NCBI GenBank assembly: GCA_023301725.1
Contig: JALZUD010000010.1
Span: 1-64,000 of the forward strand
DNA: 64,000 nucleotides
Direction of reading: 5' to 3'
DNA from: Granulosicoccus sp.
Lineage (GTDB): Bacteria > Pseudomonadota > Gammaproteobacteria > Granulosicoccales > Granulosicoccaceae
Shown: positions 5,702-16,547 of the stretch, in pieces
Layout: every line of letters starts with the position of its first letter
How positions within the stretch are numbered: the stretch's first letter is position 1
Notes under the pieces: model-generated
What the model was told of the DNA's origin: nothing
The model's database searches: none
Seen by the model: only the letters and a program-made list of their open reading frames with translations
Program-made: the position numbers and the translations under genes

Positions 5702-6994
5702 ATGCCATTACTCCATCGTTTCAAGTTATCAGGGCTCGTCGCGGCCAGTCTGGGAATAGCTAGTTTTTCGTTGCACGCACAGGACGACACAATCAAGGTC
5801 GGTGTTCTGCACTCGCTTTCAGGAACCATGGCGATTTCAGAGACCACCCTGAAAGACACCATGCTGATGTTGATTGATCAGCAGAATGAAAACGGCGGCT
5901 TGCTAGGAAAGCAGTTGGAAGCGGTGGTTGTAGATCCTGCCTCTGATTGGCCATTATTTGCTGAGAAAGCTCGTGAGCTGATTGAGCAAGAAGGTGTTGC
6001 TGCAACCTTTGGAGCCTGGACATCAGTGTCCCGCAAGTCAGTGCTCCCTGTGTTCGAGGAATTGAACAGTGTGCTGTTTTATCCTGTGCAATATGAAGGC
6101 GAAGAATCCTCGAAAAATGTTTTCTACACTGGAGCTGCCCCAAACCAGCAGGCCATCCCTGCTGTCGATTATCTGACCAATGAAATTGGCGTGGAGCGAT
6201 GGGTATTAGCGGGAACCGATTATGTTTATCCGCGTACCACCAATAAAATTCTTGAAGCTTATCTGCAGGCCAATGGCGTTGCCAGTGAAGACATCATGAT
6301 CAACTACACACCTTTTGGGCATGCTGATTGGCAGTCGATTGTCTCAGACATCAAGAAGTTTGGTTCTGAGGGCAAAAAGACAGCGGTAGTTTCTACAGTG
6401 AATGGCGATGCCAACGTGCCTTTTTATAAAGAGTTGGGAAATCAGGGAGTCTCAGCTGAAGATATTCCAGTTATTGCGTTTTCAGTGGGTGAAGAAGAAT
6501 TATCAGGATTTGACACTGAGCCTCTAGTCGGGCACTTGGCTGCGTGGAATTACTTCATGAGCGTTGATGCTGAAGCTAATGATGCATTCATTGATAGCTG
6601 GCTTGATTACATTGGCGATGATGCACGTGTAACGAATGATCCTATGGAAGCTCACTACATCGGTTTTAACATGTGGGTAAAAGCTGTTGAAAAAGCTGGG
6701 ACAACAGATCCATCGGCTGTACAGGATGCACTGATTGGTGTGTCTGTTCCAAATCTTACAGGTGGGTACTCAACCATGATGCCTAACCACCACATCACTA
6801 AACCTGTATTAATTGGCGAAATACAGGACGATGGTCAATTCGAAGTGGTTTGGGAAACTCCAGGACTAGTTGCAGGCGATGCGTGGTCAGATTTTCTGGA
6901 AAGCAGTAAGGACATTATCTCTGACTGGCGTGCACCGCTGTCTTGCGGTAACTACAATGTCAGCACTGGTGTTTGTTCGGGACAGAACCTTTAG
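5702..6994 (+). CDS. urtA: Urea ABC transporter, periplasmic binding protein
   Basis: A 430-residue type I periplasmic binding protein of the UrtA group. A signal peptide (about 1-26, ending SLHAQ) is followed by IKVGVLHSLSGTMAISE, then FGAWTSVSRKSVLPVFEE and LFYPVQYEGEESS, all typical of UrtA rather than of branched amino acid binding proteins. It delivers urea or short-chain amides to the UrtBC permease. It is the first gene of urtABCDE and lies 55 bases before urtB. A 290-base upstream region should contain the promoter; I saw no convincing sigma-54 site there. Confidence 0.95.
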   Translation: MPLLHRFKLSGLVAASLGIASFSLHAQDDTIKVGVLHSLSGTMAISETTLKDTMLMLIDQQNENGGLLGKQLEAVVVDPASDWPLFAEKARELIEQEGVAATFGAWTSVSRKSVLPVFEELNSVLFYPVQYEGEESSKNVFYTGAAPNQQAIPAVDYLTNEIGVERWVLAGTDYVYPRTTNKILEAYLQANGVASEDIMINYTPFGHADWQSIVSDIKKFGSEGKKTAVVSTVNGDANVPFYKELGNQGVSAEDIPVIAFSVGEEELSGFDTEPLVGHLAAWNYFMSVDAEANDAFIDSWLDYIGDDARVTNDPMEAHYIGFNMWVKAVEKAGTTDPSAVQDALIGVSVPNLTGGYSTMMPNHHITKPVLIGEIQDDGQFEVVWETPGLVAGDAWSDFLESSKDIISDWRAPLSCGNYNVSTGVCSGQNL

Positions 6995-7049
6995 GATCCA
7001 AACCCTTTCTTAGCGCAAGGATGCGCTTTATCCTCACTCGAGTTTATCT

Positions 7050-8681
7050 ATGTCCCTTCGCACTGCGATAGTGTCCATCGCTGCACTATGTCTTATGATT
7101 TCCCATCAGCATGTTCAGGCTGAAGTAACAACCGGAATCGATGAATTAGATCCTATATTCGAGGCTTTCTATGAGGGTAAAGGTGACACCCGAACGCAGG
7201 CGCTTGATGCGCTAGCTGCTCTGTCCCTGCCGGATGAGCAACCGGATACGCGGGAACTTTTGCAGGGTATTCTCGATGGAGATCTGATGTTCCATCAGCC
7301 CTCCAGTACGATTGTCTGGGCTACAAAGGACGGGCGAGAGTTTGCAATGATCTCACTCGATCGAGCCGAGGACCTGGGGCGTGATAGTAGTCGTAAGGTC
7401 AAGCGCCTTAAATTAAATAACAGTATTCGCGGTTATTTGCGTCAACTCATTGCAGGGCTTGGTCTTTACTCAGAAAATTCTGCCGAGCGACTCACCGCTA
7501 TCGAGGCACTAATTGATAACCCAAAATCAATCGAGCAAATCACGCTAGACGAGTTACTGGAAAATGAGCAAGATGAAGCGGTACTGGCTGCATTGAAGTC
7601 TTTGGCCACACGCAAGCAACTGGGATCTACCGATCCTTACATAAGACTCGAAGCTGTCAATGCTTTACGCACCGATTTGTCATCCGAGTCGCGCGCAGCC
7701 GTTGTGCGTCTTCAGAATACTGACGAAGATGAGACTGTTCGAGAAGCAGCCTCCGCAGTTCGCATTTTTCACGAACAACAAGTGAAACTATTTGGCTGGG
7801 CTGAAACATTGTTTTTCGGACTCAGCCTTGGATCAGTGCTAGTGCTGGCAGCCATCGGCTTAGCGATCAGCTTCGGGGTCATGGGTGTGATCAACATGGC
7901 ACATGGCGAATTAATCATGCTGGGTGCCTACTGCGCTTGGGCTATGCAACAACTGATGCCTCAATCAATTGCAGCAGCATTGCTGATATCCATACCGATA
8001 GCTTTCTTATTCACTGGGGCAGTCGGAATTATTATTGAGCGGACAGTGATTCGGTTTCTCTACGGGCGACCTCTTGAAACCTTACTAGCCACGTTTGGGA
8101 TCAGCTTAATACTTCAACAAGTGGTACGCACATTTGTATCGCCACAAAACGTACCTGTTGCCAACCCAGACTTCATGAGTGGAGTCCTGCAGATAAACGG
8201 GGTGTTCAGCCTGACCTTGAACCGGATGTACATCCTAGTGTTCTGTCTTGTTGTATTTGCAGCGTTGGTGGCGTTGCTCAAATACAGTCGCTTCGGGTTA
8301 GAGGTTCGTGCCGTGTCGCAGAACCGATCTATGGCAAGAGCAATGGGTGTGCCCTCAGCCAGAATTGACTCGTTAACGTTTGGCTTGGGCGCAGGGATTG
8401 CTGGAGTGGCAGGCGTGGCATTGTCACAACTGACGAATGTCGGTCCAAACCTAGGTCAGGCTTATATAGTTGATAGTTTTATGGTGGTGGTATTTGGGGG
8501 TGTGGGCAATCTATGGGGCACGTTGATCAGCGGCATGACCTTGGGTATTGCCAACAAGTTAATGGAGCCTTGGGCTGGGGCTATTCTCGCCAAAATTCTT
8601 GTGCTGGTTTTTCTGATCATGTTCATACAAAAGAGGCCACGCGGATTATTTCCGCAACGTGGTCGCGCGGTGGAGGGCTAG
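7050..8681 (+). CDS. urtB: Urea ABC transporter permease UrtB
   Basis: A 543-residue inner membrane permease with the long N-terminal extension characteristic of UrtB. A signal-like segment (1-24) leads into a helical-repeat region (about 25-245) with HEAT-like units such as RLTAIEALIDNP and YIRLEAVNAL. The LivH-like permease domain follows (about 250-540), including GVMGVINMAHGELIMLGAY and LLATFGISLILQQ. It forms the translocation path with UrtC. The TAG stop is followed after three bases by the urtC start, so the genes are coupled. Confidence 0.95.
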   Translation: MSLRTAIVSIAALCLMISHQHVQAEVTTGIDELDPIFEAFYEGKGDTRTQALDALAALSLPDEQPDTRELLQGILDGDLMFHQPSSTIVWATKDGREFAMISLDRAEDLGRDSSRKVKRLKLNNSIRGYLRQLIAGLGLYSENSAERLTAIEALIDNPKSIEQITLDELLENEQDEAVLAALKSLATRKQLGSTDPYIRLEAVNALRTDLSSESRAAVVRLQNTDEDETVREAASAVRIFHEQQVKLFGWAETLFFGLSLGSVLVLAAIGLAISFGVMGVINMAHGELIMLGAYCAWAMQQLMPQSIAAALLISIPIAFLFTGAVGIIIERTVIRFLYGRPLETLLATFGISLILQQVVRTFVSPQNVPVANPDFMSGVLQINGVFSLTLNRMYILVFCLVVFAALVALLKYSRFGLEVRAVSQNRSMARAMGVPSARIDSLTFGLGAGIAGVAGVALSQLTNVGPNLGQAYIVDSFMVVVFGGVGNLWGTLISGMTLGIANKLMEPWAGAILAKILVLVFLIMFIQKRPRGLFPQRGRAVEG

Positions 8682-8684
8682 ATC

Positions 8685-9788
8685 ATGCGTGCAGGGAAGT
8701 CCAGATTATCTACATTGTTATTTGTTAGTGCTGTGGTGACGCTGTTGGTTAGCGTCACCACGTTTAATCAGTTGCCCGCAGACCATGAGTTGCATGTTGG
8801 CAACTTTATGATCAGCTTGCTAGGCAAGTACCTCACGTATGCCATATTGGCCGTGGCTGTTGACCTTGTCTGGGGTTACTTGGGAATTCTCAGTCTTGGT
8901 CATGCCGCATTCTTTGCCTTGGGCGGTTATGCAATGGGCATGTACCTGATGCGACAGATCGGTGATCGGGGGGTATACGGGAATCCAGATCTCCCTGACT
9001 TCATGGTGTTTTTGAATTGGACTGAACTACCTTGGTATTGGAGTGGATTTGATAGTTTTGCATTTACAGCGTTGATGATCCTAATGATTCCAGGGTTATT
9101 GGCATTTGTTTTTGGCTGGTTTGCTTTTCGTTCGCGGGTTAATGGAGTTTATTTATCAATTATCACGCAAGCATTAACCTACGCATTGATGTTGGCGTTT
9201 TTCCGTAATGAGATGGGCTTTGGCGGGAACAATGGGCTAACAGATTTTAAAGAGATTCTTGGATTTGATCTTCGTTCTGATCAGGTTCGACTCGGTTTGT
9301 TTATTGCGTCCGGTATTTCGCTCATTTTTGTCTATCTATTGTGCGACAGCATATTGCGCTCTAGGCTTGGTAAGGTAGCCATCGCTATTCGAGATGCAGA
9401 AAACAGAACACGGTTTCTAGGGTATCGAGTTGAGCGGGTAAAGCTCAGCCTATTTACATTGTCTGCGATGATTGCAGGACTGGCGGGTGCGCTGTACGTG
9501 CCGCAAGTTGGAATTATCAACCCTGGAGAATTCTCACCGCTGAATTCTATAGAGGTGGTTGTCTGGGTTGCTATTGGTGGGCGTGGGACTTTGTATGGAG
9601 CGGTGGTTGGGGCGTTGGGAGTGAACTATGCAAAGACGTGGTTTACTGGTGCGTATCCGGAAGCTTGGCTGTTTGCCTTAGGGCTATTGTTCGTACTTGT
9701 TACGCTGGCACTACCCAAAGGTATTGCGGGGCTGCGCTGGTTCAAGGCACAAGCTAAGCCAATAGTTGAATCGGAGCAAAGCGCATGA
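8685..9788 (+). CDS. urtC: Urea ABC transporter permease UrtC
   Basis: A 367-residue LivM-like permease with about ten membrane segments. Typical sequences include AVAVDLVWGYLGILSLGHAAFFALGGYAMGMYL near residues 57-89 and EVVVWVAIGGRGTLYGAVVGA near 287-307. It pairs with UrtB in the membrane. It overlaps the start of urtD by four bases (ATGA), so translational coupling is expected. Confidence 0.95.
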   Translation: MRAGKSRLSTLLFVSAVVTLLVSVTTFNQLPADHELHVGNFMISLLGKYLTYAILAVAVDLVWGYLGILSLGHAAFFALGGYAMGMYLMRQIGDRGVYGNPDLPDFMVFLNWTELPWYWSGFDSFAFTALMILMIPGLLAFVFGWFAFRSRVNGVYLSIITQALTYALMLAFFRNEMGFGGNNGLTDFKEILGFDLRSDQVRLGLFIASGISLIFVYLLCDSILRSRLGKVAIAIRDAENRTRFLGYRVERVKLSLFTLSAMIAGLAGALYVPQVGIINPGEFSPLNSIEVVVWVAIGGRGTLYGAVVGALGVNYAKTWFTGAYPEAWLFALGLLFVLVTLALPKGIAGLRWFKAQAKPIVESEQSA

Positions 9789-10630
9789 GCACTGTAAAAG
9801 GGTATCAAAAGCCTTTAATTCGACGAGATCGAACGTTTGAATTTTTGATCCCTCAGTACGTGGATGATCTGGATCTTTCTCATGGGACAGCTCTCTACCT
9901 GGAAGATATCTCTGTAAATTTTGATGGGTTTCAGGCAATCAGTAACCTTAATTTTTATGTCAATACTGGAGAACTTCGGTGTTTGATTGGACCCAATGGC
10001 GCAGGTAAGACGACGCTAATGGATATTGTGACTGGAAAGACGCGCCCCGATTCTGGTAGTGCCTGGTTCGGGCAGCGTATTAATCTATTGAGAATGGATG
10101 AGGCAGAAATAGCTCAAGCAGGCATCGGTCGTAAGTTTCAGAAACCATCGGTGTTTGAGAATTTGAGTGTGTTCGATAACCTGGAATTATCTATGGCTGG
10201 TACGCGCTCGGTTTGGGGTACGTTCAGAGCAAAGATGAGTCGACAAACTATTGAGCAAATTGAAGCAATGGCTGAGACTATCAACTTGGTCGACCAACTG
10301 GATCGAGATGCGGGGTTGCTATCGCACGGACAGAAGCAGTGGCTGGAGATCGGCATGCTTATTATGCAGAACCCCACCCTGTTGCTTGTTGATGAGCCAG
10401 CAGCAGGTATGACACACCAAGAGATGGATAAGACAGTGGAGTTGTTACGCCTACTAGCAGGTGAGCGCGCTGTTGTCGTCGTTGAACATGACATGGGCTT
10501 TGTCAGGGCGTTACAGGCACCCGTCACTGTGCTTCATCAAGGAAGCGTTCTTGCAGAAGGCAGTATGGATGATATTCAAAGCAACAGTGATGTTATGCGC
10601 GTCTACCTCGGCACGGAGAGCACAACGTGA
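9785..10630 (+). CDS. urtD: Urea ABC transporter ATPase UrtD
   Basis: A 281-residue ABC ATPase of the LivG/UrtD type. The Walker A motif is GPNGAGKTT, the signature is LSHGQKQWLEIGM and the Walker B region is LLLVDEPAAGM. UrtD proteins typically have HGQ in the signature where most ABC proteins have GGQ, as seen here. It sits on the cytoplasmic face with UrtE and powers uptake. The start overlaps urtC by four bases and the end overlaps urtE by four bases. Confidence 0.94.
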   Translation: MSTVKGYQKPLIRRDRTFEFLIPQYVDDLDLSHGTALYLEDISVNFDGFQAISNLNFYVNTGELRCLIGPNGAGKTTLMDIVTGKTRPDSGSAWFGQRINLLRMDEAEIAQAGIGRKFQKPSVFENLSVFDNLELSMAGTRSVWGTFRAKMSRQTIEQIEAMAETINLVDQLDRDAGLLSHGQKQWLEIGMLIMQNPTLLLVDEPAAGMTHQEMDKTVELLRLLAGERAVVVVEHDMGFVRALQAPVTVLHQGSVLAEGSMDDIQSNSDVMRVYLGTESTT

Positions 10631-11325
10631 TTACTCTATCCAACATTGATCAGTATTACGGTTCCTCACATACCCTCAAAGATGTAAGTCTTAGCGTAAA
10701 ACAAGGTTCTTGCACGGTGCTGATGGGGCGTAATGGCGTGGGAAAAACAACACTGATGCAATGTATCACTGGATTGCTACCCATTCGTAAGGGAGAAATT
10801 TCGTTAGGCGATAATCGATCATTGACCAAGATGTCGGCTGAACGACGTGCCGCTATGGGAATCGGCTATGTCCCCCAGGGGCGACAAATATTTCCACTGC
10901 TCAGTGTTGAAGAAAATCTGTCTATTGGTCTGCGGGCTCGTAATGATGGACTGCGCGATATCCCAGAGCTTATATACAGTCTGTTTCCCGTGCTCAAAGA
11001 AATGCGCAGCCGGCGTGGTGGAGATTTATCAGGTGGGCAGCAACAGCAATTGGCTATTGGACGGGCTTTAGCAACACAGCCAGATGTACTTTTATTGGAC
11101 GAGCCAACTGAAGGAATACAGCCGAACGTCGTACAGGACATTGGTGACATTATCCAAAAATTGAATAAGGAAATTGGCCTAACCGTGTTGCTGGTAGAAC
11201 AGAAATTACCGTTTGCCCGACGTGTGGGGGATGATTTTGCCATTATGGATCGAGGGCATATTGTAGCCAACGGAGCCATGGCTGATTTGGGTGATGAGCT
11301 GGTCAGACAGTATCTAACGGTGTAG
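10627..11325 (+). CDS. urtE: Urea ABC transporter ATPase UrtE
   Basis: A 232-residue ABC ATPase of the LivF/UrtE type starting at a GTG that overlaps the urtD stop (GTGA). Walker A is GRNGVGKTT, the signature is LSGGQQQQLAIGRAL and Walker B is LLLDEPTEGIQP. The GIQP box is the LivF/UrtE hallmark. It is the last gene of the operon. No urease (ureABC) or urea carboxylase gene follows, so the imported urea must be used by enzymes encoded elsewhere. Confidence 0.94.
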   Translation: MITLSNIDQYYGSSHTLKDVSLSVKQGSCTVLMGRNGVGKTTLMQCITGLLPIRKGEISLGDNRSLTKMSAERRAAMGIGYVPQGRQIFPLLSVEENLSIGLRARNDGLRDIPELIYSLFPVLKEMRSRRGGDLSGGQQQQLAIGRALATQPDVLLLDEPTEGIQPNVVQDIGDIIQKLNKEIGLTVLLVEQKLPFARRVGDDFAIMDRGHIVANGAMADLGDELVRQYLTV

Positions 11326-11413
11326 TGAACAACCGATCAGATTGTTGATCGAAGCTATTTATTGCTGCCCAACCGTGACGAGTACCGCCTTCTTTATAGG
11401 GCATTCCTGCGGC

Positions 11414-12535
11414 TCAGCGCAGTAAAATATCGCCGCTCAGCGATTGCATGTCACGCAAACCGAGCTGGGCAAGTGCAATGCTGGTTTCTGCGCTGAATAC
11501 GTCGACCATCTCAGCCAAACCTCGTTCGCCACCAGCCGCAATTGCAAACAACAAAGAGCGACCAAAAAAGACAAAATCAGCACCCATTGCGTAGGCTTTT
11601 ACCACGTCTTCTCCACTGCGAATACCCGAGTCAAAAAACAAGGGATAGTCAGCACCTAGGGCACCACGAATGTTGGCAAGCGCGTGTATGGGTGGTGGCA
11701 CACTGTCGAGCTGACGACCACCGTGACTTGAGACTTGTATAGCATCCACCCCAGCGTCGCGCAGTCTGATAGCGTCGTCGCTGTTGAGCACGCCTTTTAC
11801 CACTAGGTTGCCTTTCCACAATTCACGGATATTGCTTAGCAATTGCCAGTCGGCACCTGCGCGGCTGGTGGTTCGGTCAAACTCGCCAAACGCACCACCA
11901 AAATTTGCCAATTCAGGTGCACCTTTAAACAAAGTAGACAGAGACCACTGTGGGTGTAATGCAAAATCTACGAACTGCTGCGGCCCAATTTTAAAAGGCA
12001 TTTTAAAACCGCGCTTAAGTTCACGCGGACGACGTCCCACTTCTGGCACATCCACAGTTAGTACTAGGGTTTTGTAGCCCGACGCAGACGCTCTGTTGAT
12101 CAGTGCTTTAGAAGCCTCAAAATCACCACTAAAATACAACTGAAACCAGGCGTTGCCGTCGGCAGCTTCAATGATGTTCTCCAGCGAAGTAGACGCGGCT
12201 GTAGACGCCCCTACTGGTACTTTATGCTTGGCAGCCATGCGCGCCAGCATGAGGTCAGCGCCAGGCCTAGACAAATTACACATGCCCATTGGGCTAACAC
12301 CAAAAGGCAGAGCCGCCGTCTGGCCAAACAACTGCACCGCTAAACTGCGGTGCTCGACGTTTTTGAGAATGCGAGGCTGCAATCGCAGCTCTCGCAGTGC
12401 TTGGCGATTGGCAGCTTCGCCGTGGCCCTCTCCCGCTGCACCGTCTATATAGTCAAACACCATCCAAGGTAGACGGCCCTGCGCAATGCGCCGAGCGTCT
12501 TCCGCCGAATGTATGTGTTGTGGCAGGTGCAGCAT
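11414..12535 (-). CDS. FMN-dependent 2-hydroxyacid dehydrogenase, probable sulfolactate dehydrogenase
   Basis: A 373-residue member of the LldD/glycolate oxidase family. The N-terminal helical segment (HSAEDARRIAQGRLPWMVFDYIDGAAGEG) is typical, SPMGMCNL is the FMN-binding loop, VDAIQVSSHGGRQLD carries the catalytic base H271, and FFDSGIRSGEDVVKAYAMGAD ends the barrel. The family oxidises L-2-hydroxyacids. It is the last gene of an operon with comDE and hpsN, so I infer that it oxidises (R)-3-sulfolactate, the HpsN product, to sulfopyruvate. (R)-sulfolactate has the L configuration, which suits this family. A lactate or mandelate dehydrogenase is the alternative. It starts 19 bases after comE. 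Confidence 0.85.
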   Translation of the reverse strand: MLHLPQHIHSAEDARRIAQGRLPWMVFDYIDGAAGEGHGEAANRQALRELRLQPRILKNVEHRSLAVQLFGQTAALPFGVSPMGMCNLSRPGADLMLARMAAKHKVPVGASTAASTSLENIIEAADGNAWFQLYFSGDFEASKALINRASASGYKTLVLTVDVPEVGRRPRELKRGFKMPFKIGPQQFVDFALHPQWSLSTLFKGAPELANFGGAFGEFDRTTSRAGADWQLLSNIRELWKGNLVVKGVLNSDDAIRLRDAGVDAIQVSSHGGRQLDSVPPPIHALANIRGALGADYPLFFDSGIRSGEDVVKAYAMGADFVFFGRSLLFAIAAGGERGLAEMVDVFSAETSIALAQLGLRDMQSLSGDILLR

Positions 12536-12554
12536 GTTTTTCAGCCCGCTGTGA

Positions 12555-13121
12555 TCAGGCTTTTCGTGCTTCTAAGGATTTCATAAAACGATCACGAATC
12601 ACGACAGGGTCCATCGTAATCACGGGCACTTTAATATTGCCTGACTCGCATTTACAAACAATGATAGTCATTTTATTGCTGTCGATTGCCTTTTGCAGCG
12701 TGGCTGGTGCTTCTTCAGCCTGACACTCAATCACATTCTCACATCCACAAGCTGTGGCTACCGCGGTTAATGAAGTCTTCATGCCAGCGTAGGTTGGCTG
12801 ATCACCTGTGGAGCCGTAGCTGCCGTTGTCGATTATCAGCAAAATAAAGTTATCGGCTACGTTATTAGCAATGGTGGGCAAGGTGCCAAAGTTTGTCAGT
12901 ACCGAGCCGTCGCCGTCGATGGAGATAACTTTTTCTTTTTGTGCCAGCGCAACACCTAGACCAATAGATGATGACAAACCCATGGTTCCGAGCATATAAA
13001 AATTGGTGGGCTTGTCAGCCATCATGTGTAGCTCTTGGCTAGGCAGACCGATATTGCAAACCACATGGTGATCGGCAAAAACAGGCAGTAGGCTTTTAAT
13101 TACTTCTGATCTGATCATCAT
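12555..13121 (-). CDS. comE: Sulfopyruvate decarboxylase, beta subunit
   Basis: A 188-residue TPP-binding C-terminal-type subunit. I start it at the ATG whose first base is the last base of the comD stop (TAATG), giving MMIRSEVI. The TPP/Mg site is visible as SIDGDGSVLTNFGTLPTIAN followed by LLIIDNGSYGSTGDQPTY. With ComD it forms the split decarboxylase that turns sulfopyruvate into sulfoacetaldehyde. Phosphonopyruvate decarboxylase is a close relative, but the adjacent hpsN makes the sulfonate substrate more likely. Confidence 0.88.
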   Translation of the reverse strand: MMIRSEVIKSLLPVFADHHVVCNIGLPSQELHMMADKPTNFYMLGTMGLSSSIGLGVALAQKEKVISIDGDGSVLTNFGTLPTIANNVADNFILLIIDNGSYGSTGDQPTYAGMKTSLTAVATACGCENVIECQAEEAPATLQKAIDSNKMTIIVCKCESGNIKVPVITMDPVVIRDRFMKSLEARKA

Positions 13122-13618
13122 TAATACCCATTCCAAAAAGTGGCGTCAGTTAATATAGCGACCGGCTTGTTACACATAAACGTGTAGGCAAGAATAGCGT
13201 CTAACTCTTCTACATCGGCTTCTTTGTGTAGATGATAAGTAGGCACATTGATTTGCGCCAACAGCGCTTTGGTGTGCACCGCCATCTCCGCCTGGCAAGC
13301 TACTGGCTCGCCAAGCTCACCGCGGTAGCTTATCAACATAGGCAACGGCATGCGGTAAAACTGAGTCAGTGTCACCAATGTATTGATGGTCACACCAATT
13401 GCGGTGTTTTGCATCACGATAGCTGCGCGTTTGCCGCCCATAAAAGCACCGGCGCAAATGCCCATGCCTTCGTCTTCTTTGTTAGATGGAATGTGGTAAA
13501 TGCTAGGCTCAGCATCTATTTTTTCAATAACACCCGCTAACTGCTTGCACGGCACTGTGGTGACTAGCTCAACCCGGTGCTTGACCAGATCAGCAACTAG
13601 TTTGTCGTCGATAGACAT
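13121..13618 (-). CDS. comD: Sulfopyruvate decarboxylase, alpha subunit
   Basis: A 165-residue N-terminal-type TPP enzyme subunit. Key sequences are VELVTTVPCKQLAGVIEKI, HIPSNKEDEGMGICAGAFMGGKRAAIVMQN with the catalytic glutamate of the TPP N-terminal domain, and MLISYRGELGEP. ComD and ComE are fused in some organisms and split here. It overlaps comE by one base, which ensures balanced translation. It lies 153 bases after hpsN, and that gap shows no obvious terminator. Confidence 0.88.
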   Translation of the reverse strand: MSIDDKLVADLVKHRVELVTTVPCKQLAGVIEKIDAEPSIYHIPSNKEDEGMGICAGAFMGGKRAAIVMQNTAIGVTINTLVTLTQFYRMPLPMLISYRGELGEPVACQAEMAVHTKALLAQINVPTYHLHKEADVEELDAILAYTFMCNKPVAILTDATFWNGY

Positions 13619-13771
13619 TTAATAACTCCTCGATTTAAAGACGAGTTGAGACCAGTTTAGGTCCCACTCAACAAATACTTCACCCTGCAGCAATCAGGGC
13701 TTACTGTTTATGACCAGTGACACAAGCGACCTTACCCTTCAAATCGAAGAGCGTTGGCAGATCAGCAGCAC

Positions 13772-15082
13772 TCATACTTCAGGTACCGTAAGCTCGAATG
13801 TCTCGTCTGGAAAGTACTTGGCTAAACGAACATCAGCCGAACGGGCGTGCCCTTCCATACCTTCCAATCGAGAGATACGAGCAGTGGCTTCGGCGACAGG
13901 CTTAGAACCTTCGCGAGTAGCGCGCTGCCAAGTGACGATTTTCATATACTTATGGACCGACAAGCCGCCGGTGTAATTGGCAGCGCCAGAAGTTGGCAAT
14001 ACGTGGTTAGTACCTGAGGCCTTGTCACCGTAAGAAACCGTTGTCTCTTCACCCAGGAACAAAGAGCCGTAGCATTGCAGACGGTTCAACCACCAATCCA
14101 GATCTTCAGCTTGTACCGTCAAATGTTCTGGTGCGTAGTCATCGGAGCATGCGGCCATCTCTTCGCGGTCGCTGCACAAAATCACTTCGGCGTAGTCACG
14201 CCATGCAGCTTCTGCATTTTTGCCGTTTAATTCAGGCAGATCAGCAATCAAACCTGGTACCAGCTCCATAACTTTCTCTGCAAGTGCTCGATCGTCAGTG
14301 ACTAGCCAAACTGGAGAGTTGTATCCGTGTTCAGCCTGGCTGACCAAATCAACGGCCGCGATCATAGGATCAGCGTTTTTGTCTGCAAGGATCAAACTGT
14401 CAGTTGGGCCAGCAAACATATCAATGCCCACGCGCCCAAACAAAATGCGTTTAGCTTCAGCGACAAACTGGTTGCCGGGACCGACCAAAATGTCTGCCTT
14501 TGGCAAACCGAACAATCCGAATGTCATGCTTGCAATAGCCTGCACGCCACCCATCGCTAGGATGGTATCAGCACCCGCAATGTGTGCCGCATAAACGATA
14601 GCAGGGGCAACACCTACGCCAGGGCGCGGAGGAGAGCAAGCAACAATATTGTGTACGCCTGCCACCTTGGCGGTGGTGACCGTCATGATGGCAGAGGCAA
14701 TGTGGCTGTAACGTCCACCGGGGATATAACAACCCGCCGTGTTGCAGGGAATAGTTTTTTGGCCTGCGATAAGGCCCGGAACAATCTCAACTTCAATATC
14801 TTGAAGCGTGGTTTTTTGAGCTTCTGCAAAACGCTTGACGTTAGCGTGGGCGAACTGAATATCTTGCTTGAGTTTTTCAGGCACAAGAGCACAAGCCGCT
14901 TCAATCTCTTTGGCGCTTAGGATGATACTGCCGTCGTAGTTATCGAACTTGGCAGCGTATTGCGTGGCAACTCTGTCACCACCAGCCTCGATAGCATCGA
15001 GGATTTCTTTAACTGTGTGACTGACATCTGCGACATCAGTTGAGGAGGTGAGCGTCGCTTTTTTTAAGTATTGCAAAGCCAT
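13772..15082 (-). CDS. hpsN: Sulfopropanediol 3-dehydrogenase (HisD-like)
   Basis: A 436-residue protein of the histidinol dehydrogenase superfamily. Zinc ligands align with HisD: Q249 and H252 in SQAEHGYNS, the Asp in YGDKASGTNHVLPT, and the His in EGMEGHARS; E319/H320 in APEHLTV are the catalytic pair. After GTNHVLPT it reads SGAANYTGGLSVHKYMK, as in HpsN rather than in true HisD. HpsN oxidises DHPS to (R)-sulfolactate with two NAD+. The absence of other his genes and the presence of comDE support a sulfonate role. It is preceded by a small membrane protein and the LacI operators. Confidence 0.88.
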   Translation of the reverse strand: MALQYLKKATLTSSTDVADVSHTVKEILDAIEAGGDRVATQYAAKFDNYDGSIILSAKEIEAACALVPEKLKQDIQFAHANVKRFAEAQKTTLQDIEVEIVPGLIAGQKTIPCNTAGCYIPGGRYSHIASAIMTVTTAKVAGVHNIVACSPPRPGVGVAPAIVYAAHIAGADTILAMGGVQAIASMTFGLFGLPKADILVGPGNQFVAEAKRILFGRVGIDMFAGPTDSLILADKNADPMIAAVDLVSQAEHGYNSPVWLVTDDRALAEKVMELVPGLIADLPELNGKNAEAAWRDYAEVILCSDREEMAACSDDYAPEHLTVQAEDLDWWLNRLQCYGSLFLGEETTVSYGDKASGTNHVLPTSGAANYTGGLSVHKYMKIVTWQRATREGSKPVAEATARISRLEGMEGHARSADVRLAKYFPDETFELTVPEV

Positions 15083-15158
15083 TTTAAATCATTCCTATTG
15101 GTATATTTCGGGGAGCAGCGACGTGGAAATTGCTGGTACAAAAGGTTGAATACCCACT

Positions 15159-15347
15159 TTACTCGTCAATTTTTGACTGGTTTGCTGTGTGTTCAGCACT
15201 CAGGATTGCGGCTACAAAAAAGCCCGCAACTGCCATCAGCAACAACATTTCGCTGACATCACCCAAAATCGCTTGGCCATTAATTGAACCCATCGCAACA
15301 TTGCCGACAAACAGCAAAAAAAGCCCGATAGAAATCCGTATGTACAT
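15159..15347 (-). CDS. Small two-span membrane protein at the head of the DHPS operon
   Basis: A 62-residue protein with hydrophobic segments at about 4-21 and 34-51, a short polar loop between them and a charged tail. The start is convincing: AAGGGGTG lies six bases before the ATG. It is the first reading frame downstream of the two LacI-type operators and runs in the same direction as hpsN, 76 bases away. I recognise no family. A transport accessory or a membrane anchor for a pathway enzyme are possibilities without direct evidence. Confidence 0.6.
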   Translation of the reverse strand: MYIRISIGLFLLFVGNVAMGSINGQAILGDVSEMLLLMAVAGFFVAAILSAEHTANQSKIDE

Positions 15348-15425
15348 AAATCACCCCTTGGGCAGGCCTACAAACCAATCAGATGCGCTGCATCTGGCAC
15401 TATTCGTCAATGACGTGTCGGCACA

Positions 15426-15463
15426 ATGTAATCGCTTACATCTATAAATGCAAGCGCTTACAT
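15426..15463. promoter_or_regulatory. Two LacI-type operators in the DHPS divergent promoter
   Basis: ATGTAATCGCTTACAT (15426-15441) and ATGCAAGCGCTTACAT (15448-15463) are two near-identical 16-bp palindromic sites with a CG centre, as expected for LacI/GalR regulators. Their centres are 22 bp apart, two helical turns. They lie between the leftward hpsN operon and the rightward lacI-type gene and are very likely its operators. Repression of both directions is inferred. Confidence 0.8.
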
Positions 15464-15536
15464 TTCTCATTCAACAGTTTTTGCGTTGTCTGTGTCAGAG
15501 TCACGGTTGAAATCCTTGCTTAAACCTTGAATTCAG

Positions 15537-16547
15537 ATGGATAAAGCTGTGCTGCCCACCATTGAAGACGTCGCCAAACGCGCACAGGTGTCGACCGCTA
15601 CCGTTTCTCGATGCCTCAACACCCCAAATCGTGTGGCTGAATCAACGCGCGACAAGGTAATTGCAGCTGTCACTGAACTAGGATATTCACCAAACTTTGG
15701 TGCCAAAGCACTGGCTTCAAAGCGCACAAACACCTACGGCGCGATCATTCCGACAATGGCCAACGCCATTTTTGCCAAAGGATTGCAAACATTCCAAGAG
15801 ACCCTCACGGAACACGGTGCCACGCTGCTGGTGTCCAGCTCCTACTACAACAACGCCATTGAGGAAGAGCAGATACGTTCCATGGTTGCTCGGGGTGCGG
15901 ACGGCTTACTGCTCATTGGCCAGAGTCGCAGTGACACGATTTACCAGTTTCTGGAACAACAAAACATTCCTGTGGTGCTCGCTTGGAGTTTCGATGCCAG
16001 CTCGAAATACAACATGGTAGGTTTTGACAACAGAGCGGCTAGCCTAAAGTTGGCGCAAAAAGCTATCGCGCTCGGCCATAGACAATTCGCCTTTTTAAGC
16101 GGAGAGCGAGAGAATAATGATCGCGCTTCAGAGCGCGTTAAAGGCGCGCAACAAGCACTCGCAGCGGCAGACATTGATCCGAACAGCATGCCAGTCATCG
16201 AAGCGCCATACTCGATCACTGAAGCTGGTGAAGCCTTTGAACAACTAATGTCCTCTCCTGTGAAGCCTAGCATCGTGATGTGTGGCAATGATGTACAAGC
16301 TGTTGGGGTACTCAAAAAAGCACGAGAAAGGGGGATAGATGTGCCCGGGGACGTGTCGATTACCGGCTTCGATAATCTTGAAATTGCTAGCGTGGTAGAA
16401 CCCGGTATCACCACCGTACACGTACCGCATAGGCAGATGGGCCGCAAGTCAGCGGAGCTACTGTTGTCTGATGATGCCAAAGCAAAACCCAGCCAGACTG
16501 AGCTGCAAACCTACTTAGTTGAACGCGATTCATTGGCCGCAGTTTAG
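15537..16547 (+). CDS. LacI-family regulator of the DHPS operon
   Basis: A 336-residue regulator with an N-terminal helix-turn-helix (TIEDVAKRAQVSTATVSRCLN, residues about 6-26), the hinge region (GYSPNFGAKALASKRTN), and a periplasmic-binding-protein-like effector domain (about 60-335), including GADGLLLIGQSRSD and SIVMCGNDVQAVGVLKKARERGIDVP. It is transcribed away from the hpsN operon, with two matching operators 70-110 bases upstream. The likely inducer is DHPS or sulfolactate, inferred from context. Confidence 0.9.
   Translation: MDKAVLPTIEDVAKRAQVSTATVSRCLNTPNRVAESTRDKVIAAVTELGYSPNFGAKALASKRTNTYGAIIPTMANAIFAKGLQTFQETLTEHGATLLVSSSYYNNAIEEEQIRSMVARGADGLLLIGQSRSDTIYQFLEQQNIPVVLAWSFDASSKYNMVGFDNRAASLKLAQKAIALGHRQFAFLSGERENNDRASERVKGAQQALAAADIDPNSMPVIEAPYSITEAGEAFEQLMSSPVKPSIVMCGNDVQAVGVLKKARERGIDVPGDVSITGFDNLEIASVVEPGITTVHVPHRQMGRKSAELLLSDDAKAKPSQTELQTYLVERDSLAAV

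Follow-up and report, generated by a model that had tools for sequence, protein, structure and literature searches.

How is sulfolactate oxidised on the way from 2,3-dihydroxypropane-1-sulfonate (DHPS) to central metabolism in the marine bacterium Granulosicoccus sp., and is the enzyme for that step a known one or a new one? The window that we analysed, a 64,000-nucleotide stretch of contig JALZUD010000010.1, carries on its minus strand, at 11414-15347, an operon with four named genes: hpsN, comD, comE and the gene for an enzyme dependent on flavin mononucleotide (FMN). All four are intact open frames. A sequence-only reading had joined these genes in one operon and put the FMN enzyme at the sulfolactate step, and on both counts it has held up. 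It had also taken the known sulfolactate dehydrogenase SlcD for an enzyme of the flavin adenine dinucleotide (FAD) type, and suggested that the operon may be an uncharacterised variant of the pathway. That claim to novelty fails because it rests on SlcD being an FAD enzyme, which gene order argues against. Judging from gene position, we consider it very probable that the product of 11414-12535 is an orthologue of SlcD, and that SlcD in turn belongs to the FMN-dependent alpha-hydroxyacid dehydrogenases.

Gene order around slcD

In R. pomeroyi, genes SPO0590-0598 are given as hpsR, hpsK, hpsL, hpsM, hpsN, hpsO, hpsP, hpsQ and slcD, and the slcD product is described as a 'membrane-bound sulfolactate dehydrogenase' (PMC4334477). 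Four Roseovarius loci (L064, L066, L070 and L094) follow this published order, end in the FMN gene and lack comDE; hpsR and hpsK are separated in them by an extra small gene, which is missing from the published R. pomeroyi table. More widely, members of the FMN family lie directly after hpsRKLMNOPQ or, in many roseobacter loci, after comDE inserted there. Three annotated roseobacter plasmids carry, in order, a LacI gene, a small protein, the K, L and M genes of a tripartite ATP-independent periplasmic (TRAP) transporter, hpsN, hpsO, hpsP, a universal stress protein, comD, comE and an alpha-hydroxy acid oxidase, and on these plasmids comDE, where present, immediately precedes the FMN gene. In the window, too, the FMN gene follows comDE. 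The FMN family thus shares with SlcD of R. pomeroyi (SPO0598) and R. nubinhibens its gene place, its proposed step and an expected association with the membrane. The window copy differs in its surroundings, as hpsK, hpsL, hpsP and hpsQ are absent from its operon and only stubs of hpsM and hpsO are left.

SlcD and ComC are both labelled (R)-sulfolactate dehydrogenases in the legend to Fig. 3 of PMC11131964, and S. pomeroyi SlcD is said to convert sulfolactate to sulfopyruvate (PMC6278857). Granulosicoccus was already named in 2024 as having hpsNOP, SlcD, ComDE and Xsc (PMC11382572). The words 'FMN' and 'flavin' are absent from the text of that paper, and neither a cofactor nor a family is given for SlcD in the excerpts examined of PMC4334477, PMC11131964, PMC11382572, PMC10199032, PMC6278857 and PMC12330013. 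The DHPS pathway with SlcD in Granulosicoccus was therefore known already; what is peculiar to the window is an eroded cluster, an Xsc encoded elsewhere and a second comDE-FMN cassette in the genome.

Association with hpsN and comDE

Relatives of the FMN enzyme numbered 368 in a scan of named genomes, and we examined the 80 best; this and all later counts are limited to the locus stretches examined. Among these 80, hpsN is found in 46, comDE in 57, either in 64 and both in 39, and comE lies directly upstream of the FMN gene on the same strand, at less than 200 bases, in 50. If the count is restricted to the 57 loci that extend 5 kb or more to each side of the FMN gene, hpsN or comDE is present in 49. 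The association is more than chance. Three of the 80 loci (L057, L069 and L080) have hpsN, comDE and the FMN gene without hpsO or hpsP.

The identities of the partner genes in the window follow from profile and structure matches. The product of hpsN (13772-15082, minus strand; PF00815) is predicted to be an (R)-DHPS-3-dehydrogenase, with the solved DHPS dehydrogenases 8wwe and 8v35 as its top sequence matches in the PDB (743 and 539 bits, against 252 for the top histidinol dehydrogenase listed). The alpha and beta subunits of a sulfopyruvate decarboxylase would be encoded by comD (13121-13618, minus strand) and comE (12555-13118, minus strand), respectively. By reading, comE starts at the ATG at 13118, while the list of open reading frames begins it at a TTG at 13136. 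ComE scores 233.2 bits with TIGR03846, above the cut-off of 221.5, and ComD 144.8 bits with TIGR03845, slightly below the cut-off of 147.95. Both also match the phosphonopyruvate decarboxylase model, so one could read the operon as a phosphonate operon, with the ComDE-like protein acting as a phosphonopyruvate decarboxylase and the FMN enzyme oxidising phosphonolactate. However, the sulfopyruvate models are far ahead (233 versus 129 bits for ComE and 145 versus 74 for ComD), and HpsN and Xsc indicate sulfonates. We find a phosphonate operon scarcely credible.

Exchange with other sulfolactate enzymes

We used as a second sample all genomes with an HpsO match at 1e-100 among 394 family genomes, giving 104 hps loci chosen irrespective of the FMN gene. 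The FMN enzyme is present in 43 of them and suyAB in 38, never together, and a comC-like gene is present in 29, again never with the FMN gene. By contrast, comDE accompanies the FMN gene in 38 of 43 loci and is found in just 5 of the 61 loci that lack it. It seems that the FMN enzyme takes the place of other known users of (R)-sulfolactate. ComC, for one, shares with it the proposed reaction on (R)-sulfolactate, but is NAD-linked and belongs to another Pfam family, Ldh_2. Among the 80 loci chosen by the FMN enzyme there is one (L032) in which the FMN gene and a comC-like gene occur together.

Fisher values for the FMN gene against suyAB, comC and comDE are 1e-12, 5e-9 and 2e-17, but these ignore kinship. 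A quick HpsN tree was built from 98 of the 104 loci (L144, L163, L170, L203, L220 and L237, with no hpsN in the stretch examined, were omitted); it implies 15 changes in the presence of the FMN enzyme and 14 in that of suyAB. Independent pairs on well-supported branches number four with 98 loci and three with 56, too few for a kinship-corrected test, and therefore the Fisher values overstate the case.

The same loci bear on whether the published SlcD could after all be an FAD-linked enzyme of the GlcD type, which would make the FMN enzyme a new, non-orthologous replacement. A GlcD-type FAD enzyme does lie near the FMN gene in seven of the 80 FMN loci (L034, L039, L041, L045, L072, L079 and L088), six of them with TctA and TctC and five with comDE; we take this TctA/TctC setting to resemble the slc cluster of R. 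nubinhibens. A LysR gene is present in five of the seven. In the 104 hps loci, however, a search with the L041 enzyme as the single query, at 200 bits, found the GlcD-type enzyme in none, compared with 43 for the FMN enzyme, and it is the FMN enzyme that occupies the published slcD place in the four Roseovarius loci. We thus regard a non-orthologous replacement as unlikely. A different FAD protein, of the DAO type, occurs near xsc in two loci (L023 and L137).

Family and active site of the FMN enzyme

The enzyme encoded by 11414-12535 (minus strand) matches PF01070 with 397 bits, where 24.9 is the cut-off, and has the catalytic Tyr, Tyr, Asp, Arg, Lys, His and Arg of that family. It had been called an LldD-family enzyme. 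The Pfam family is indeed shared with LldD, and by analogy an L-handed substrate and quinone-linked oxidation may be as well, but the scores against the LldD models PRK11197 (263.1 bits, with 376 needed) and L_lactate_LldD (232.7 bits, with 550 needed) fall well short. By these two models it is not LldD itself.

In an alignment of 95 rows, residues Y29, Y134, D162, R169, K247, H271 and R274 are conserved in 92-95 rows; we take them to serve FMN binding, substrate binding and proton removal, as in the family at large. The closest solved relative by sequence is (S)-mandelate dehydrogenase (6bfg; also 1huv), which shares the catalytic residues with the window enzyme. G84 aligns with a Gly of (S)-mandelate dehydrogenase, and a Gly at this position goes with dehydrogenase rather than oxidase behaviour. 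Likewise, the window enzyme has a long loop beyond residue 180 that lines up with its counterpart in (S)-mandelate dehydrogenase, presumably the membrane-binding segment, or anchor, of the latter. Because of this Gly and this loop, electrons are likely to pass from the FMN enzyme to the membrane chain, that is, to quinone. The subfamily of the window enzyme differs from 6bfg in gene context, in the stretch M85-C86-N87-L88 and in R221 and R225, which are present in 95 of 95 rows and absent from 6bfg. These two arginines are possible contacts for the sulfonate group.

The proposed route

We suggest the following route. HpsN would oxidise (R)-DHPS to (R)-sulfolactate, the product given for it in PMC11382572. 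The FMN enzyme would then convert (R)-sulfolactate to sulfopyruvate and hand two electrons on to the membrane chain, with quinone as the probable acceptor; ComDE would decarboxylate sulfopyruvate to sulfoacetaldehyde, from which Xsc, encoded on another contig, would release sulfite and acetyl phosphate. The place of the FMN enzyme at the second step is well supported by gene context across genomes, while its substrate, the handedness of that substrate and its electron acceptor are what we infer. The argument from stereochemistry that the sequence-only reading had made stands as well. By the Cahn-Ingold-Prelog (CIP) rules, (R)-sulfolactate is arranged in space like L-lactate, because CH2-SO3 ranks above COO in priority, and such L geometry suits an FMN alpha-hydroxyacid dehydrogenase.

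Xsc is encoded on contig C27 of the same genome (G000:C27), with 934 bits against a cut-off of 676, and therefore the path from DHPS can be traced as far as sulfite and acetyl phosphate. HpsN, a candidate sulfolactate dehydrogenase, ComDE and Xsc, the parts of the Xsc-type DHPS/sulfolactate pathway, thus occur in one genome, with ComD marginally below its cut-off.

The genome also contains a second comD-comE-FMN cassette (G000:C4:68748-70990, which is L104:8748-10990), whose products are 82%, 82% and 67% identical to those of the window genes. There is no hpsN within the 20 kb examined near this cassette, which lies downstream of genes for a thiolase, a short-chain dehydrogenase/reductase and, by reading, pyruvate dehydrogenase. 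Such neighbours could suit an ordinary dehydrogenase of L-lactate, glycolate or another 2-hydroxyacid that stands beside comDE by accident. The PF01070 family is broad, moreover, and for 16 of the 80 relatives the stretch examined lacks both hpsN and comDE. However, the other 64 do carry hpsN or comDE, the enzyme is well below the LldD cut-offs, and the second copy is likewise preceded by comDE. We consider an accidental neighbour very unlikely.

The seven loci with a GlcD-type enzyme allow a more tentative idea. The FMN enzyme, for (R)-sulfolactate with its L geometry, and the GlcD-type FAD enzyme, for (S)-sulfolactate with D geometry, might form a respiratory flavoenzyme pair comparable to lldD and dld for lactate, although we would not count on it. 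If true, both enzymes would supply ComDE and the quinone pool, replacing the NAD-linked ComC/SlcC racemase pair. The GlcD-type enzyme of L041 scores 261 bits with TIGR00387, under the cut-off of 567.9, and that of L039 is only 36% identical to it. The FMN half of the proposed pair is present twice in the genome of the window.

Points against the assignment

Several observations weigh against reading the FMN enzyme as SlcD at work on (R)-sulfolactate. First, it is by gene position that the FMN family is most likely the published SlcD of R. pomeroyi and R. nubinhibens. A search with R. pomeroyi HpsO, the protein of PDB 8wwf (PMC11131964), across two Roseovarius genomes, 394 family genomes, two genera and 389 largely overlapping relatives gave a best match of 84%, so the R. 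pomeroyi genome was probably not among them. Second, the association is incomplete: besides the 16 relatives mentioned above, comDE occurs without the FMN enzyme in five of the 104 hps loci, and in 23 both the FMN enzyme and suyAB are missing from the stretch examined. After kinship correction, the exclusion of suyAB and comC by the FMN gene is not significant (median p of 1 for each, and 0.5 for comDE). Third, R221 and R225 are found in distant relatives (L106 and L107) outside this gene context. Fourth, two NAD-type Ldh_2 proteins elsewhere in the genome are 36-39% identical to roseobacter ComC-like proteins and could be alternative, NAD-linked oxidisers of sulfolactate. Finally, the cluster in the window is eroded, so uptake and use of DHPS by this strain are unsure.

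Erosion and possible transfer of the cluster

On a quick tree of the FMN-enzyme family, used only to find the nearest kin of the window enzyme, these are L024 and L025. The locus L024, from a Granulosicoccus metagenome-assembled genome, has an FMN enzyme 97% identical to that of the window, and ComD of the window is 97-98% identical to ComD of the two loci. The operon DNA (window 11413-15833) is 90% identical to L024 and 86% to L025. This similarity ends where slcD ends and on the other side extends to the LacI gene. The genome of L025 (G190) is placed in another family of the same class, while in a genome of the same genus as the window (G258, with L069; Granulosicoccaceae) the cluster is 68-73% identical and its order different. 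The operon was either moved between lineages or misbinned.

A DNA alignment with L024, in which hpsKLM and hpsO are present and hpsP was not found, reveals two deletions in the window. The first removed hpsKLM and spared just the final 14 codons of hpsM; the remnant with its stop (15095-15139, minus strand) reads VPAISTSLLPEIYQ-stop and resembles the end of L024 HpsM, and the alignment breaks within hpsM. The second removed hpsO except for its first 21 or so codons, and is bordered by window 13714, equivalent to L024 6081, and window 13694, equivalent to L024 6922. The hpsO remnant (13701-13775, minus strand) keeps the start codon and the 5' end, its frame stops after 24 codons, and it overlaps the hpsN stop like the intact hpsO of L024. 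hpsP, which L025 has, is absent from the window cluster, so that intact copies of hpsKLM, hpsO and hpsP are all lacking there.

The best relatives of the lost proteins elsewhere in the genome are 33% (HpsM), 57% (HpsO) and 48% (HpsP) identical. The last of these figures, for identity to L025 HpsP, belongs to an HpsP-like dehydrogenase at G000:C43:67622-72056 (L130:5622-10056), which follows TRAP genes (DctM by Pfam and the others by reading); this locus is possibly a replacement for uptake. TRAP genes were not found in the cluster of the close relative L025 (L025:872-4176). There, an ATP-binding cassette (ABC) transporter, with an ATPase and a family 3 solute-binding protein by Pfam, adjoins the hpsR-like gene, and is possibly an alternative DHPS importer.

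Neighbouring genes

Divergent from the operon is a gene for an hpsR-like LacI-family regulator (15537-16547, plus strand; PF00356/PF13377), whose position and orientation match those of the LacI gene in other hps clusters. The first gene of the operon (15160-15347, minus strand) encodes a membrane-like protein of 62 residues without a Pfam family, 87% identical to a 62-residue protein at L024:1353-1541. In many hps clusters, including those of roseobacters, a homologue separates hpsR from hpsK, and the gene is retained in the window despite the loss of the transporter genes. On the opposite strand, urea-type ABC transporter genes (5702-11325; assigned by reading, with the permease and ATPase by Pfam) end beside the FMN gene. 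In four Granulosicoccaceae loci (L060, L062, L063 and L095), relatives of the FMN enzyme lie near a gene for a SurA/PpiD-like peptidyl-prolyl isomerase, and the stretch examined around them is free of hps and com genes.

Implications

DHPS is a major currency of sulfur and carbon between algae and marine bacteria. Some genomes are now annotated merely with an 'alpha-hydroxy acid oxidase'. If SlcD belongs to the lactate/mandelate family of FMN enzymes, with neither SuyAB nor ComC beside it in the 104 hps loci, this would aid the annotation of the oxidative branch of the pathway. It also predicts that the sulfolactate step would feed the respiratory chain, and not NAD+.

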